DNA of 64,000 nt from an uncultured Pseudomonadales bacterium (GTDB lineage: Bacteria; Pseudomonadota; Gammaproteobacteria; Pseudomonadales; Azotimanducaceae): NCBI GenBank assembly GCA_958296405.1, contig OY282519.1:1906132-1970131 (forward strand), in the 5' to 3' direction. This document shows, piece after piece, positions 5,165 to 10,779 of this stretch. Position numbers and translations under genes: made by a program. Position 1 is the first letter of the stretch. Each line of letters starts with the position of its first letter. The notes beneath the pieces were generated by a model, which did no database searches, was not told where the DNA came from, and saw only the letters and a program-made list of their open reading frames with translations.

Positions 5165-7654
5165 TCAACCAGACGCCAGCTTAGCCAGCCGCGCCACCGC
5201 CGCCTCGAGGTCTGGCTCATCCGTCAGCACGTCGCGCATGGGGTCGCCCATGCGTTTGAGCCGCGCCACGGCGTTGCCGATGTGGAAGTTCTCGTTGCGC
5301 AGCCGACGGTTGAGTTCAGACCACTTGAGTGGCATGGAGACGGAAGCCGCCGGCTCCGCGCGGGCGGAAAACGGTGCCACGATGAGCTGGCCGTGCCGGT
5401 TCTGCAGGTAGTCGATGTACACCTTGCCGCCGCGTTGCCGCACCGCTCGGGTGATGGTGCAGGTGTCTGGGCGCCGCGCCACCACCGCGCGGGCGAGCAA
5501 CTCCGCCAGCGTGCGCGACTGTTCGTGGGTGAGCCGCCGCGCCAGCGGGATGAGGACGTGCAGCCCGCTCGCGCCGCTCGTCTTCAAGTAGCCGGGCAGC
5601 CCCAACTCTTCGATGAGGTCGCGGATTTCCTTGGCGGCGCCCAAAACATGCTCGAACGGCGCGTCCTTGGGGTCTAAGTCCAGCACGCACCAGTCTGGGT
5701 GCGCCAAGTCGTCGATGCGGCTGTGCCAAGCGTGTACGGGAATGGCGCCGAGATTGGCGAAGTACTTGAGCGATGCCGCGCCCTCGGCCATGAAGTAGTT
5801 GATGTCGCGTTGCTCCGTGTCCGTCCACAGCGACGCGCGCTTCACCCACTCCGGCGTGAAGTCCGGCGCGTCCCGCTGATAGAAGGACTTGCCGTGGATG
5901 CCGTCTGGAAACCGCGTCAGCACCAGCGGGCGGTTGCGCAGGTAGGGCAGCATCCACGGCGCGATGCGCTCGTAGTAATCCACCAAGTCGCCCTTGGTGA
6001 GCGCCTTCTCCGGGAAGAACGTCTTGTCGCGGTTGGTCACCACCACATCGGGCGGCGCGTCCGCAGCCGGTTCGATGGGCTGCAAGTCGTCAAAGGCGCT
6101 CACGCACTCAGCCGGCGGCTTGTCGTCGCGCAGGCGCAGGAACGCCGGTTGGCGCAACATTCCGTCCAGCGAATACTCTTGGAAGGACACCTCGCAGACG
6201 AGTTCCCCGGCCACCCAGCGGATCTCCTTGTCCGCCGCCAAGGCGGTGCCCTTGCCCAGCGCCGGCAGCCGCTCGAGGAACTCGCGCCGCTCCGCGCTGC
6301 CGAGGCCTGAACCCACCCGCCCGCAGTAGCTCAAGCCGGCGGCGCGGAACTCGGCGAGGGCGAGCGCTCCCACGTCCGCGTCGTTGGACTTCACCGGCAC
6401 CCAGCCGACGATCACGAAGTCTCCATTGCGTTGCGCCCGCACCTTCACCCAATCGTCCGAACGGCCGCTGCGGTAGGGGCTGTCCGCGCGTTTGCCCACC
6501 ACGCCTTCCAAGCCGAGCTTGCGCATGCCGGCGTAAGCCTGCGCGCCGTGCTCCGCCACATGGTCGGAAAAGCGCAGCGGGCCGGCGGAAGGCAGCATCT
6601 CCTTCAGCAATGCCTTGCGCTCAATGAGCGGGGTGGCGCGCAGGTCGTAACCGAGGGCCTGCGGCAGGTCGAAGGCGTAGTACGTCACCGGCAGTTCCCG
6701 CGCCAGCCGCGTCAAGCGCCGTGCGTCATGCACCTTGGCGCGTTGCTGCAGCAGCGCAAAGCTCGGCCGGCCAGACGGATCCTGCACCACGGCTTCGCCA
6801 TCCATGACGAACTGCGGGTACGGCAGGCGGCGCGCCAGCCGCTCAAGGTCTGGGAAGTTGGGCGTGAGGTCCAAGCCGTTGCGCGAGCGCAGGGTCACGC
6901 CGTCGCCGTCCCGCTCGATGAGCAGCCGGTAGCCGTCGTACTTCACCTCGAAGAGCCAGCCGGCGCGATCGAACGCTTCCCCGGCGCGAGCGAGCATGGG
7001 CTTGATGGACAAAGGCGGGCCTTGCGGCGGGCAGGGCGCCAAACGCTCGATGCGGTGCGCGAGACGCTTGCCGGCTTGGGCTGGATTGGCCATGCCGTCC
7101 AACGTGAGGCCAGAGAGCACCGAATCGTCGAGCGGCGGCTGCGCGCTCTCGTGGCCATCGCGCTCCTTGATTAAGAGCCACTCCTTGCCGTCTTTGGAGG
7201 CGTTGCGGCCCTTGAGGCGGATCAGCGTCCAACGGCCGCGCAGCTTGTGGCCATTGAGTTGGAACAGCAGTTTGCCGCGCTCGAAGCCCTCGTCGAAGGG
7301 CTCCAGCTCGATGTAGTGGCCGCAATCCCACACGATGACGTGGCCGGCGCCGTAGTTGCCGTCTGGGATGCGTCCCTCGAACTCCGCGTATTCCAGCGGA
7401 TGGTCTTCCACCTGCACGGCGAACCGCTTGTCGTCTGGGTTCGGCGACGGTCCCTTGGGGACGGCCCAAGAGCGCAGCACCCCGGCCACTTCCAAGCGCA
7501 CGTCCCAATGCAGATGGCTGGCGCGGTGTTGCTGCACCACGAAAATGCGCGCGTCGCGCGCGCCACCGCCATCCGCCGCGGCGAACGGTTCCGGGGTGGC
7601 GCCGGCGGCGCGTTTGCGCCGGTAGGCGGCGAGGTCGGTGGTGGTTGTGGCCAT
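5165..7654 (-). CDS. ligD: Multifunctional DNA ligase D (NHEJ)
   Basis: 829 residues with the three LigD modules in the order phosphoesterase, ligase, polymerase. The 3'-phosphoesterase (about 35-165) has HRASHLHWDVRLE. The ATP-dependent ligase (about 215-510) has the nucleophile motif KYDG near residue 238, DGEAVV, EGVVGKR and WVKVRA. The LigD-type primase/polymerase (about 540-825) has the metal-binding DLDPKD near 658 and the SGASGLHV motif. It trims, fills and seals double-strand breaks held by Ku. The ATG at 7652-7654 faces the ku start across an 82 bp shared promoter region. The gene is convergent with the STAND gene. Length and domain order are normal for the family. Confidence 0.95.
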   Translation of the reverse strand: MATTTTDLAAYRRKRAAGATPEPFAAADGGGARDARIFVVQQHRASHLHWDVRLEVAGVLRSWAVPKGPSPNPDDKRFAVQVEDHPLEYAEFEGRIPDGNYGAGHVIVWDCGHYIELEPFDEGFERGKLLFQLNGHKLRGRWTLIRLKGRNASKDGKEWLLIKERDGHESAQPPLDDSVLSGLTLDGMANPAQAGKRLAHRIERLAPCPPQGPPLSIKPMLARAGEAFDRAGWLFEVKYDGYRLLIERDGDGVTLRSRNGLDLTPNFPDLERLARRLPYPQFVMDGEAVVQDPSGRPSFALLQQRAKVHDARRLTRLARELPVTYYAFDLPQALGYDLRATPLIERKALLKEMLPSAGPLRFSDHVAEHGAQAYAGMRKLGLEGVVGKRADSPYRSGRSDDWVKVRAQRNGDFVIVGWVPVKSNDADVGALALAEFRAAGLSYCGRVGSGLGSAERREFLERLPALGKGTALAADKEIRWVAGELVCEVSFQEYSLDGMLRQPAFLRLRDDKPPAECVSAFDDLQPIEPAADAPPDVVVTNRDKTFFPEKALTKGDLVDYYERIAPWMLPYLRNRPLVLTRFPDGIHGKSFYQRDAPDFTPEWVKRASLWTDTEQRDINYFMAEGAASLKYFANLGAIPVHAWHSRIDDLAHPDWCVLDLDPKDAPFEHVLGAAKEIRDLIEELGLPGYLKTSGASGLHVLIPLARRLTHEQSRTLAELLARAVVARRPDTCTITRAVRQRGGKVYIDYLQNRHGQLIVAPFSARAEPAASVSMPLKWSELNRRLRNENFHIGNAVARLKRMGDPMRDVLTDEPDLEAAVARLAKLASG

Positions 7655-7736
7655 GCGCTAGTGGGGTTATATTCAGCCCAACACCGCCCACACCCGCCGC
7701 AAGGCGAGGAGTGAGGCGAGAAATGAGGCGCAAGAG
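7655..7736. promoter_or_regulatory. Divergent promoter region of ligD and ku
   Basis: This 82 bp gap is the only place where promoters for ligD (leftward) and ku (rightward) can lie, unless they sit inside genes. It contains the AT-rich string GGTTATATTCAG near 7666-7677, a possible -10 element, in otherwise GC-rich DNA. The sequence GGCGCAAGAG immediately before the ku ATG is a weak ribosome-binding site. No operator palindrome was recognised. Confidence 0.35.
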
Positions 7737-8639
7737 ATGCCTGCTCGCTCCATTGCCACGGCCACCATCTCGTTCGGCCTAGTTTCCATTCCCGTCAAGC
7801 TGTATTCGACGGTGGACACCACGGCGGCCATCCGCTTCAACTACCTCAGCAAGGATGGCTCGCGCCTGAAGCAGCAGTATATCCGCGCCTCGGACGGCGC
7901 CGTGGTGGAGCGCCAAGAGCGCATCCAAGGCTACGAGTTCGCCAAGGGCCAGTACATCACCTTCTCTGAAGAGGAACTGAAGGCGCTGCATGTGACAGCC
8001 ACCAATGCCATCGACATCGCCGAGTTCATTCCCCTCGCGCAGGTGGAGCGCCTGTACATCGAGAAGGTGTATTACTTGGGGCCAGACAAGGGCGCGGCGC
8101 GTTCCTACCACCTGTTGAAGCAGGCGTTGACGAAGACGGGCCGCGCCGCGTTGGCGAGCTACGCCGCGCGCGGGCGGAGCTACTTGGTGCTGGTGCGGCC
8201 GATGGGCGAGGGCTTGGTGATGGAGCAGCTCAAGTATCAAGAAGAGCTGCGCCCGTTCGACGAAGTGCCCTTGGATGGCATTGAAGTGGCCGAAGCGGAA
8301 CTGGAACTGGCCGTGCAAATCGTGGATCAGCGCACCAACGAGCAGTTCGAGCCAGACAAGTACACCAACGAGGTGCGCGCCCATATGCTGAAGCTGATCG
8401 AGCAGAAGGCGCAGGGCGAGGACGTGTTCGTGGCGCCGGAGGAACGCACCGAGGCGAAGGTCATCGACTTGATGGAGGCGCTGCGGGCATCCGTGTCGAA
8501 GGACGACGGCGAGGAAGAAGCCGCGCCGCGCAAACCTGCCAAACGCGCCACGGCGAAGCGACGCCGCTCTCGCGCCAAGGCTGCCACCGCGGAATCCGAG
8601 AGCGACGCAGACGCGCCGCCGGCGGCGGCCGAGGCGTAG
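7737..8639 (+). CDS. ku: Non-homologous end joining protein Ku
   Basis: 300 residues, the usual size for bacterial Ku. It starts MPARSIATATISFGLVSIPV, the typical N-terminus of the beta-barrel, and continues with the bridge region including LGPDKGAARSYHLL. The last 50 or so residues are a basic, alanine-rich tail, the part that in other Ku proteins mediates DNA threading and LigD stimulation. Ku forms a homodimeric ring on DNA ends and recruits LigD, encoded divergently. The stop is followed 4 bp later by the MerR-TPR gene, so the two are probably cotranscribed. Confidence 0.95.
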   Translation: MPARSIATATISFGLVSIPVKLYSTVDTTAAIRFNYLSKDGSRLKQQYIRASDGAVVERQERIQGYEFAKGQYITFSEEELKALHVTATNAIDIAEFIPLAQVERLYIEKVYYLGPDKGAARSYHLLKQALTKTGRAALASYAARGRSYLVLVRPMGEGLVMEQLKYQEELRPFDEVPLDGIEVAEAELELAVQIVDQRTNEQFEPDKYTNEVRAHMLKLIEQKAQGEDVFVAPEERTEAKVIDLMEALRASVSKDDGEEEAAPRKPAKRATAKRRRSRAKAATAESESDADAPPAAAEA

Positions 8640-8643
8640 CGCC

Positions 8644-9537
8644 ATGCAAGCGGTAGCCGAGGCTGACGTCCGGCCAGCCGGCCACACCACGCGGGAAGTG
8701 GCAGACTTGCTCGGCTTTTCCGTTGGCCAAGTGCGCCAGTTCGTGAAGCGCGGCTTGGTGGAGCCGGCGCGTGGCGAGCGTGGCGAGCACCGCTTCTCGT
8801 TCCCTGATGTGGTGTTGCTGCGCATGGCCAAGCGCTTGATGGACGACAACGTGCCGCCGCGCCGCGCTTTCGCAACCCTCGCCAAGCTGAAGCACGAGCG
8901 TGGCGGGAGGCCACTGGCTTCCGTGCGCATACTGAGCCAAGGGAACCAAGTGGTCGTGCGCGATGCCGCCACCCTTTGGAATGTGGACACTGGCCAAGGC
9001 CACTTGGATTTCGAGGCTGCCGGCGTCGCTTCGCCGGCTGTTGCAGAGGAACGCCCGGCATCGAACGTCGCGCAGGTGGCGCACTTGGCCGATCGCCGCC
9101 ACCTCCCACCCGGCCAAACCCCGGCGGATTTTGGCGCCGACGAGTGGTACGACTTGGGCGTGCAGCTTGAGGAGATGGACCCGCCCAGCGCCCCCGGCGC
9201 CTACGCGCGCGCCATCGCGCTGGATGCGCAGCACGCGGACGCGCACGTCAACTTGGGGCGCCTCTATCAGTTGCAGGGAGATTTGCGGCGCGCCAAGCGC
9301 CACTATCAGCTGGCGCTGGCTGCGGCGCCGGAGCATCCGCTCGCCAACTACAACATGGGCACGGTGTTCGACGAGTTGGAAGAAACGGACAGCGCCGCCA
9401 CCTATTACCGCCATGCGGCCAACGTGCCAGACGCCCACTACAACTTGGCGCGCATCTTCGAACTGCGGGGCGACGAAGTGTCGTCGCTGCGCCACCTGCG
9501 CAAGTACCGCCAGTTGCTGGACGGCGCCGAGCGGTAG
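8644..9537 (+). CDS. MerR-type HTH protein with C-terminal TPR repeats
   Basis: 297 residues. Residues about 15-80 form a MerR-like winged helix (HTTREVADLLGFSVGQVR, then FSFPDVVLLRMAKRLMDDNV). The C-terminal 110 residues contain TPR-like repeats (AYARAIALDAQHADAHVNLG, HYQLALAAAPEHPLANYNMG, YYRHAANVPDAHYNLARIF). There is no typical MerR effector domain, so the TPRs presumably bind a protein partner. It lies 4 bp after ku, which points to a regulatory or accessory role in end joining; that role is inferred from position only. Confidence 0.85.
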   Translation: MQAVAEADVRPAGHTTREVADLLGFSVGQVRQFVKRGLVEPARGERGEHRFSFPDVVLLRMAKRLMDDNVPPRRAFATLAKLKHERGGRPLASVRILSQGNQVVVRDAATLWNVDTGQGHLDFEAAGVASPAVAEERPASNVAQVAHLADRRHLPPGQTPADFGADEWYDLGVQLEEMDPPSAPGAYARAIALDAQHADAHVNLGRLYQLQGDLRRAKRHYQLALAAAPEHPLANYNMGTVFDELEETDSAATYYRHAANVPDAHYNLARIFELRGDEVSSLRHLRKYRQLLDGAER

Positions 9538-9697
9538 GAGCGCCGGCGGCGCATGTCCGATCTGCGAGCGAGACCTCGACCGAGCCGAAGGGCAAGGATT
9601 GGAAGACCGGCGAGGACGCCTACATAGCTAGATGCTCCGGCCGCGATATGCCATGCCATGTCGGAAAATCGGCCAAGGGCTTGGCTCTTGGAACCCA

Positions 9698-9720
9698 TTG
9701 GGGGGCAAAGCCCCCCCCAA
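9698..9720. other. Perfect short-loop hairpin downstream of a DGR-like variable region
   Basis: GGGGGGC at 9700-9706, an AAA loop at 9707-9709 and GCCCCCC at 9710-9716 form a 7 bp all-GC stem, followed by two more C. It lies 25-47 bp beyond the TGA of the leftward FGE-fold gene. In known diversity-generating retroelements a GC-rich hairpin or cruciform with a 3-4 base loop sits just downstream of the variable repeat and promotes mutagenic homing. There is no T tract on either side, so an intrinsic terminator is less likely. A weaker repeat, GCCAAG-GG-CTTGGC, lies at 9672-9685. Confidence 0.6.
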
Positions 9721-9744
9721 CCCCCGATGTAAAGAGGCTAGGAC

Positions 9745-10779
9745 TCAAGGGGTGAGCGTCCGGGCCACCCGGAACCCGATGCCGCCGTTGCGGTTGCCGG
9801 TGGTGATCCTGATCCGGAACGCGGCGCGGAGGAACGCTGGACTGAGGAACCAGGAGCCGCCGCGCAAAACGCGCTTCGCGCAATCCCCACTCAGCCACGC
9901 GCTCCCGTCGCTCGGCGCTCCACGGTAGCTGCCGTTCCAGCAGTCCTCCGTCCACTCATAAATGTTGCCATGCATTTCGTGCAGGCCCCATGCGTTCGCG
10001 CCGAAGCTGCCAACGGGCGCGGTCTTGCTGAAGTCCCACTGGCTGCCGCAGCCGTCGCAGTTGGCCAAGTTGACGCCGATCGCGTCCCCCCAGCTGTACG
10101 CCGTCTCCGCGCCCGCGCGCGCCGCGTACTCCCACTCCGCCTCGCTCAGCAGGCGGTACTCCTTCCCTGTCCTCCGCGACAGCCACTGCACATAGCCCTT
10201 CGCGTCCTCCCAGCTCACATCGACCACCGGGCGATCACCTCTGCCCCAGCCATAGTCTTCGGGCCTGTGGCCGCAGCCGCCGGCGGCCGAGCAGGCATCC
10301 CACTCCGCGAACGTCACCTCGTACCTGCCCGCCGCGAAAGGCGCACGGAATGTCACATGATGCACTGGGCCTTCGTCGTCGTTCCGTCCCTGTTCATACG
10401 GCGGCGAACCCATCATGAACGACCCCGCCGGCACCACCACCATCTCAGGGCACTCCGGACAGTCGCGTCCCACCAAGACGCCGTCCTGCTCGACGAGCGT
10501 ATCGAACTGTGTCTGCAAGGGCGGCGTTTGGCGTTCCGCGGCCTTGTCCGCTTGCTCGATGCGTCGCAGCGCGGCGCGGGCCAAGGGCGCGAATGCGCCT
10601 TCGGGGTACTGCTGCAGATACGCCTCGAAGCCGGCCGCGTCGCCGTCGCGCACAGACTCCCAGAAGACGATTTCCACGGCGACATCGCTGCTGGCGTCGG
10701 CCTCGGCGCGGGCGACCGCTGCGCTCGCCAAGAAGACGAGCGCCAAGCCAAGAGCCAACGGCAAAGGGCGGCAGGTCAT
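9745..10779 (-). CDS. Secreted FGE-sulfatase/C-type-lectin-fold protein, probable DGR target
   Basis: 344 residues. A signal peptide (LALGLALVFLASAAVARA, cut near 26) is followed by a short helical stretch and an FGE/SUMF1-type domain from about 115. Landmarks are MVVVPAGSFMMGSP, PVVDVSWEDAKGYVQWLSR, YRLLSEAEWEYAARAG and GNIYEWTEDCW. The last 42 residues run RVLRGGSW...RNGGIGFRVARTLTP. Within them the codons at positions where DGR templates carry AAC are TTC, CTC, TTC, TTC, ATC, ATC, ACC, ACC, GGC and GGC, all of the form NNC, while the framework (RGGSW, LRAA, IGFRVAR) is kept. That is the footprint of adenine-directed mutagenesis. A hairpin follows the stop. The protein probably displays a variable ligand-binding face outside the cytoplasm. 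No reverse transcriptase or template repeat was found in this window. Confidence 0.85.
   Translation of the reverse strand: MTCRPLPLALGLALVFLASAAVARAEADASSDVAVEIVFWESVRDGDAAGFEAYLQQYPEGAFAPLARAALRRIEQADKAAERQTPPLQTQFDTLVEQDGVLVGRDCPECPEMVVVPAGSFMMGSPPYEQGRNDDEGPVHHVTFRAPFAAGRYEVTFAEWDACSAAGGCGHRPEDYGWGRGDRPVVDVSWEDAKGYVQWLSRRTGKEYRLLSEAEWEYAARAGAETAYSWGDAIGVNLANCDGCGSQWDFSKTAPVGSFGANAWGLHEMHGNIYEWTEDCWNGSYRGAPSDGSAWLSGDCAKRVLRGGSWFLSPAFLRAAFRIRITTGNRNGGIGFRVARTLTP

Follow-up and report, generated by a model that had tools for sequence, protein, structure and literature searches.

Does the 3′ end of an FGE-fold gene in the window (the whole 64,000-nucleotide stretch of DNA analysed here) carry the footprint of a diversity-generating retroelement (DGR), and if so, where are the reverse transcriptase (RT) and template repeat that produced it? 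The preliminary description had claimed such a footprint at the end of a gene for a secreted protein. The gene and its parts are as follows.

9745..10779, minus strand: FGE-fold target gene, 344 aa, putatively secreted (FGE-sulfatase, PF03781, E 4.9e-59)
9745..9880, minus strand: DGR variable region (VR), codons 301–344 and the stop codon (comparative alignments)
9778..9849, minus strand: VR core with the hypervariable codons, residues 311–334 (codon alignment)

The match to PF03781 bears out the proposed fold, and the N-terminus is hydrophobic and, by eye, signal-peptide-like, in keeping with secretion. Residues 206–339 match by sequence the Treponema denticola variable protein of known structure, 2y3c (E 7.9e-14). 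Thus, as in DGR targets, the VR occupies the 3′-terminal part of a gene for a C-type-lectin/FGE fold. The motifs RVLRGGSW, LRAA, GNRN and IGFRVAR are all found as quoted in the preliminary description, as are the NNC codons, though AGT, AGG and CCA depart from this pattern at variable positions. C is the third base of 14 of the 17 variable core codons in the window copy, and of 125 of the 300 codons elsewhere in the gene (binomial p 7e-4); for six copies, five from this genome and one orthologue from another species, the count is 83/102. By themselves, the NNC codons are moderate evidence for a DGR footprint, whereas the comparative data described below make a strong case for it. Taken together, the alignments indicate that the end of the gene is almost certainly a real DGR target VR.

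The genome that contains the window (G000) is a single contig of 3,825,434 bases, 98.3% complete. A search with the VR found six VRs in it: the window VR and five more at 1122.7, 1129.9, 1136.9, 1195.9 and 2181.8 kb, which are 74–83% identical to the window VR. Three of the host genes encode an N-terminal caspase domain (L021 8632–10836, L022 3952–6351 and L022 10913–13096). The template that we deduced from the six copies has AAC at the principal variable codons and AAA at codon 313. The column counts, the C-ending codon counts and the pairwise comparison exclude the copy at 1195.9 kb, which diverges more than the others, and the pairwise comparison also excludes a VR of the second species that is one codon longer (G008_2135). 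In the remaining five copies, variation is seen at 29 of the 34 predicted adenine columns and at 8 of the 101 others, a count that is not independent because the template was inferred from the very copies compared. Over the 540 nt upstream, these five copies are 58–83% identical pairwise; each pair differs at 0–7 of the 101 framework positions and at 17–23 of the 34 adenine sites. When the orthologue is included, the respective ranges are 0.58–0.88 for upstream identity, 0–7/101 and 17–24/34. Since all pairs among the five differ at so many adenine sites, they share no haplotypes; none is shared with the orthologue either.

An independent comparison is provided by this orthologue, which belongs to another species of the same genus (G008), lies inside a collinear block of 14,573 aligned bases with 95.0% identity, and played no part in template inference. 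Within the VR, the two genes differ at 24 of the 34 predicted adenine sites and at none of the 101 other positions (Fisher p 5e-19), whereas in the remainder of the gene 79 of 897 positions differ. At the latter rate, the chance of finding no differences among 101 framework positions is 9e-5; a common template has thus probably overwritten the framework since the two species split. The alignment therefore argues strongly for diversification of the VR after that split. Four 135-base windows within 9481–9750, mostly intergenic and gapped, are more divergent between the two species than the VR. A second pair of apparently orthologous loci, in G065 and G066, was scored against a real template of the family, and showed differences at 17 of 32 template adenines and at none of 91 other positions, with 50/1494 upstream. 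In both pairs, differences within the VR are confined to the predicted adenine sites, the pattern that the preliminary description had anticipated for related strains.

An FGE pair (L137/L136) considered as a VR-free control for the G000/G008 comparison proved unsuitable, because the two genomes share an identical stretch of about 950 bases and the differences crowd in the tail, by eye without an adenine pattern. As the species are only about 95% alike in the block around the window, the identical stretch with its divergent tail suggests a recent exchange with a sharp edge.

FGE genes are multicopy in G000, and the variation might in principle reflect duplicates under positive selection that are homogenized by gene conversion, with no DGR involved. 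We consider this explanation highly improbable. It does not account for the preponderance of C at third positions of hypervariable codons, for silent framework sites that are nearly identical in copies with such divergent upstream sequences, or for the lack of shared haplotypes; it is contradicted by both orthologue comparisons and by the pairwise comparison within G000. Furthermore, relatives have a template adjoining an RT, and G000 itself contains a truncated avd gene.

The template used for the second pair comes from G061, a member of another genus of the family, in which it adjoins a DGR-type RT and Avd. It reads AACAACAAACC, with the predicted AAA present, and differs from the inferred template elsewhere, for example, at codons 315 and 327. 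Compared with this real but more distant template, the window VR has 20/32 adenine and 11/91 other differences. For 26 VR places in 12 genomes, where related copies are not independent and a 56-base match in G009 was left out, differences fall at 503/823 adenine and 344/2348 other positions; these sums include one VR of G226 twice, and without the duplicate are 481/791 and 326/2257. Agreement with the framework is poor in some VR-like copies, among them G008_3287 and G000_1195, with 24/97 and 13/96 non-adenine differences, respectively. The survey of VRs across genomes scored at most four candidates per genome, so its VR numbers are lower bounds (at least four for G000, where the dedicated search found six).

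Two inverted repeats recur behind eight aligned VRs from two genera (five in G000 and one each in G008, G065 and G066):

9698..9720, minus strand: inverted repeat rich in GC, some 24 nt past the stop codon, resembling DGR target hairpins, a role that is presumed (eight-VR alignment)
9673..9691, minus strand: second inverted repeat followed by T-rich sequence, a putative terminator or second target hairpin (eight-VR alignment)

The GC-rich repeat is present in some form behind all eight VRs; the second is imperfect in the window copy and perfect in several others. The repeats may be target hairpins or terminators. According to the excerpted text of PMC3240598, a GC-rich hairpin behind the VR of the BPP-1 DGR is required for efficient retrohoming, and the stems of phage-related DGRs are GC-rich, 7–10 bp long and placed 4–34 bp behind the VR, with GRNA loops. 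The placement and stem at the window VR are similar, but the loop sequences differ from GRNA. Moreover, the RT and template of BPP-1 are present and active, unlike in G000.

The preliminary description had called for a search of the genome for a DGR RT with its template repeat; neither of these components of a complete DGR was found in G000. No match to RVT_1 (PF00078) was obtained at E 1e-3. Three DGR RTs score 54–68 bits with this model, and hence a normal DGR RT in G000 should have shown up. We also built a profile from seven DGR RTs and searched 206 genomes of the family. At E 1e-8, it matched in 20 of the 206, most strongly in G009 and G061, which we take to be DGR RTs (that of G061 is without an internal stretch), with weaker matches in the rest. 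The same profile gave no match at this threshold in G000 among the 9 of 36 first-look candidates scored, although it found the RTs of G009 and G061. The RTs of G002 and G007, considered as DGR RTs, appear by eye to be of the group II intron type. When 390 genomes sampled from the order were searched (E 1e-10, at most two candidates scored per genome), matches were found in at least four genomes, all within the same family. An open frame that looks by eye like a real protein runs across the contig junction in both G000 (929 codons) and G008 (350 codons), and so both contigs appear circular.

When the threshold was relaxed to E 10, a single RVT_1 match appeared in G000, of 17.7 bits (G000:C1:3416748–3417227, in L025). 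As the sole RT candidate, this enzyme at 3.4167 Mb could be imagined to have taken over mutagenesis, an idea that we find hardly credible. Its best model is RT_UG13a (E 1.5e-76), from a candidate defence RT group; the VR and template searches of G000 gave neither kind of match near it; and G008, with its orthologous diversified VR, has no RVT_1 match at E 0.01.

The template query of G000 returned the six VRs, a 35-base VR-like scrap and weak short matches, and no template repeat. The 35-base match (G000:C1:1748224–1748258; L031 1501–1535) was considered as a template and fits better as a scrap of a VR beside a long G tract. By eye, a transposase remnant is located nearby.

Absence of both RT and template was one of two outcomes that the preliminary description had set against its reading, and neither was found in G000; the other, variation spread evenly over the domain, was not observed, with only the predicted sites of the VR differing between orthologues. 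We do not take the absence as a refutation because VR differences between orthologues are restricted to these sites and a truncated avd remains. The latter matches the bAvd model at 1123010–1123249 with 44.5 bits (cut-off 40), over profile positions 7–87 of 107. It comes directly after a caspase-FGE gene and its VR, 0.79 Mb from the window target, is 76% identical to the G061 Avd over residues 1–87 of 112, and then ends, with the C-terminus gone. The gene following this stub has a weak match to DUF4384.

In G061, L052 and L053, the gene order is avd, RT, template. Among the 26 VR places, avd follows the VR in four, in the single-contig genomes G000, G008, G065 and G066, and is damaged in all of them. 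It reaches residue 87 in G000, residue 47 in G008 (where similarity fades after about residue 36) and residue 47 in G066; in G065 it consists of two pieces in different frames, reaching residue 107. In G065, 70 bases that are 80% alike to the sequence behind the G061 template begin 16 bases after the avd match, and the RT and template are missing between them. At the G000 break, no match to sequence behind a template was found. Because the break points differ (about 87 in G000 and 36–47 in G008), independent losses of the RT in these two genomes appear likely, and if both diversified after their split, the RT would have been lost at least twice. A shared first break in avd followed by later erosion is an alternative to independent losses; neither course is proven.

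G000 thus combines adenine-confined variation with a truncated avd and no detectable DGR RT or template, and it is in this absence and this truncation that the loss is seen. On the probable explanation, the FGE gene of the window served as a remote DGR target, was diversified after the species split and was then stranded by deletion of the RT and template. A DGR core consisting of Avd, RT and template repeat would formerly have stood downstream of the caspase-FGE gene, at about 1.1227 Mb, and would have written copies of its template, randomized at the adenines, into six or more FGE genes, including the window gene. Copying into the VRs would have continued after the split from G008, after which the RT and template would have been deleted, leaving VRs that are now presumably frozen save for ordinary mutation. 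The order of these events, including when the core was lost, is our inference, as is the link between the stub and the core that served the window gene. The notion of a remotely served target in the preliminary description is accordingly probably right as history, given core remains 0.79 Mb away, but in the present chromosome we found no machinery that could serve it.

The RT and template might instead persist on an unrecorded plasmid, prophage or other mobile element, or in sister cells, and diversify the chromosomal VRs in trans. We regard this as unlikely. The VR framework does look fresh, with 0/101 differences; the G061 core is about 1.5 kb from a phage-portal-family match (L108 19563–20000); an IMG/VR contig (L138 7554–8831) contains a DGR-type RT and an FGE-type template of the same kind as those of the family; and in Thiohalocapsa, according to the excerpted text of PMC10907252, cells whose DGR loci are intact live alongside cells whose loci are broken. 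However, the truncated avd genes and the gap in place of RT and template in G065 suggest loss in place. Searches with the inferred template found no match in phage records and three weak cyanobacterial matches in plasmid records; a first template pattern had no match in viral contigs, and a second matched L138 alone. Four further viral pattern matches examined as VRs (L061–L064) are unreadable as a VR in three frames and look like chance. Given the phage-type context in G061 and L138, the DGR source may have been mobile. A related scheme, in which the VR array is re-diversified in bursts by a visiting core (on a phage, on a plasmid or in minority cells) that is removed after each burst, locking the sensor repertoire, seems to us quite unlikely. 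Among ten named MAG stretches with template-type loci, a DGR-type RT is present in eight, L054 has a C-terminal RT piece at its edge, and no RT was seen at L055.

The proposed stranding of the window gene by deletion of the core has precedent. In the excerpted text of PMC4891356, T. denticola isolates without a core DGR carry orphan VR genes, interpreted as leftovers of core loss, and one isolate has six targets. As in that account, VR differences here are mostly at adenine sites, and RT and template are both absent from the genome. Unlike in that account, G000 shows a truncated avd and a relative, G065, shows a junction without RT and template; in addition, two orthologue pairs indicate post-split diversification, and the targets are FGE and caspase-FGE proteins. 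Apart from PMC4891356, no title on the theme of a lost RT with avd remnants was found among the open-licence papers listed. Orphan targets after core loss are thus already known in T. denticola, and G000 is a new, well-documented case of the same.

In Thiohalocapsa PB-PSB1, as excerpted from PMC10907252, one or more other DGRs in the genome, DGR 2 among them, are interpreted as trans-acting; FGE and caspase-like targets, candidate remote targets and loci that have lost RT or template resemble the situation in G000, which differs in that no DGR RT was found. By analogy with these relatives, the target proteins may act as sensors. For cyanobacterial remote variable proteins, the excerpted text of PMC7517822 suggests loss of diversification components after selection; these dispersed CLec genes likewise have the VR near the 3′ end, but the genomes surveyed there had known DGR components, in contrast to the missing RT and template of G000.

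The single-contig genomes suggest that several putative sensor genes can be rewritten by a DGR that is later lost, leaving its products behind. Surveys that begin with the RT would miss such genes: of the 12 genomes with compared VRs, the seven-RT profile showed a DGR-type RT in one (G061, where the RT is missing an internal stretch). The orthologue pairs make the frequency and speed of DGR loss, and selection for loss, testable with population reads. Elsewhere in the window, at 5165–8639, a LigD-like ligase gene adjoins a Ku-like gene (both named by eye), a pair likely involved in end joining.
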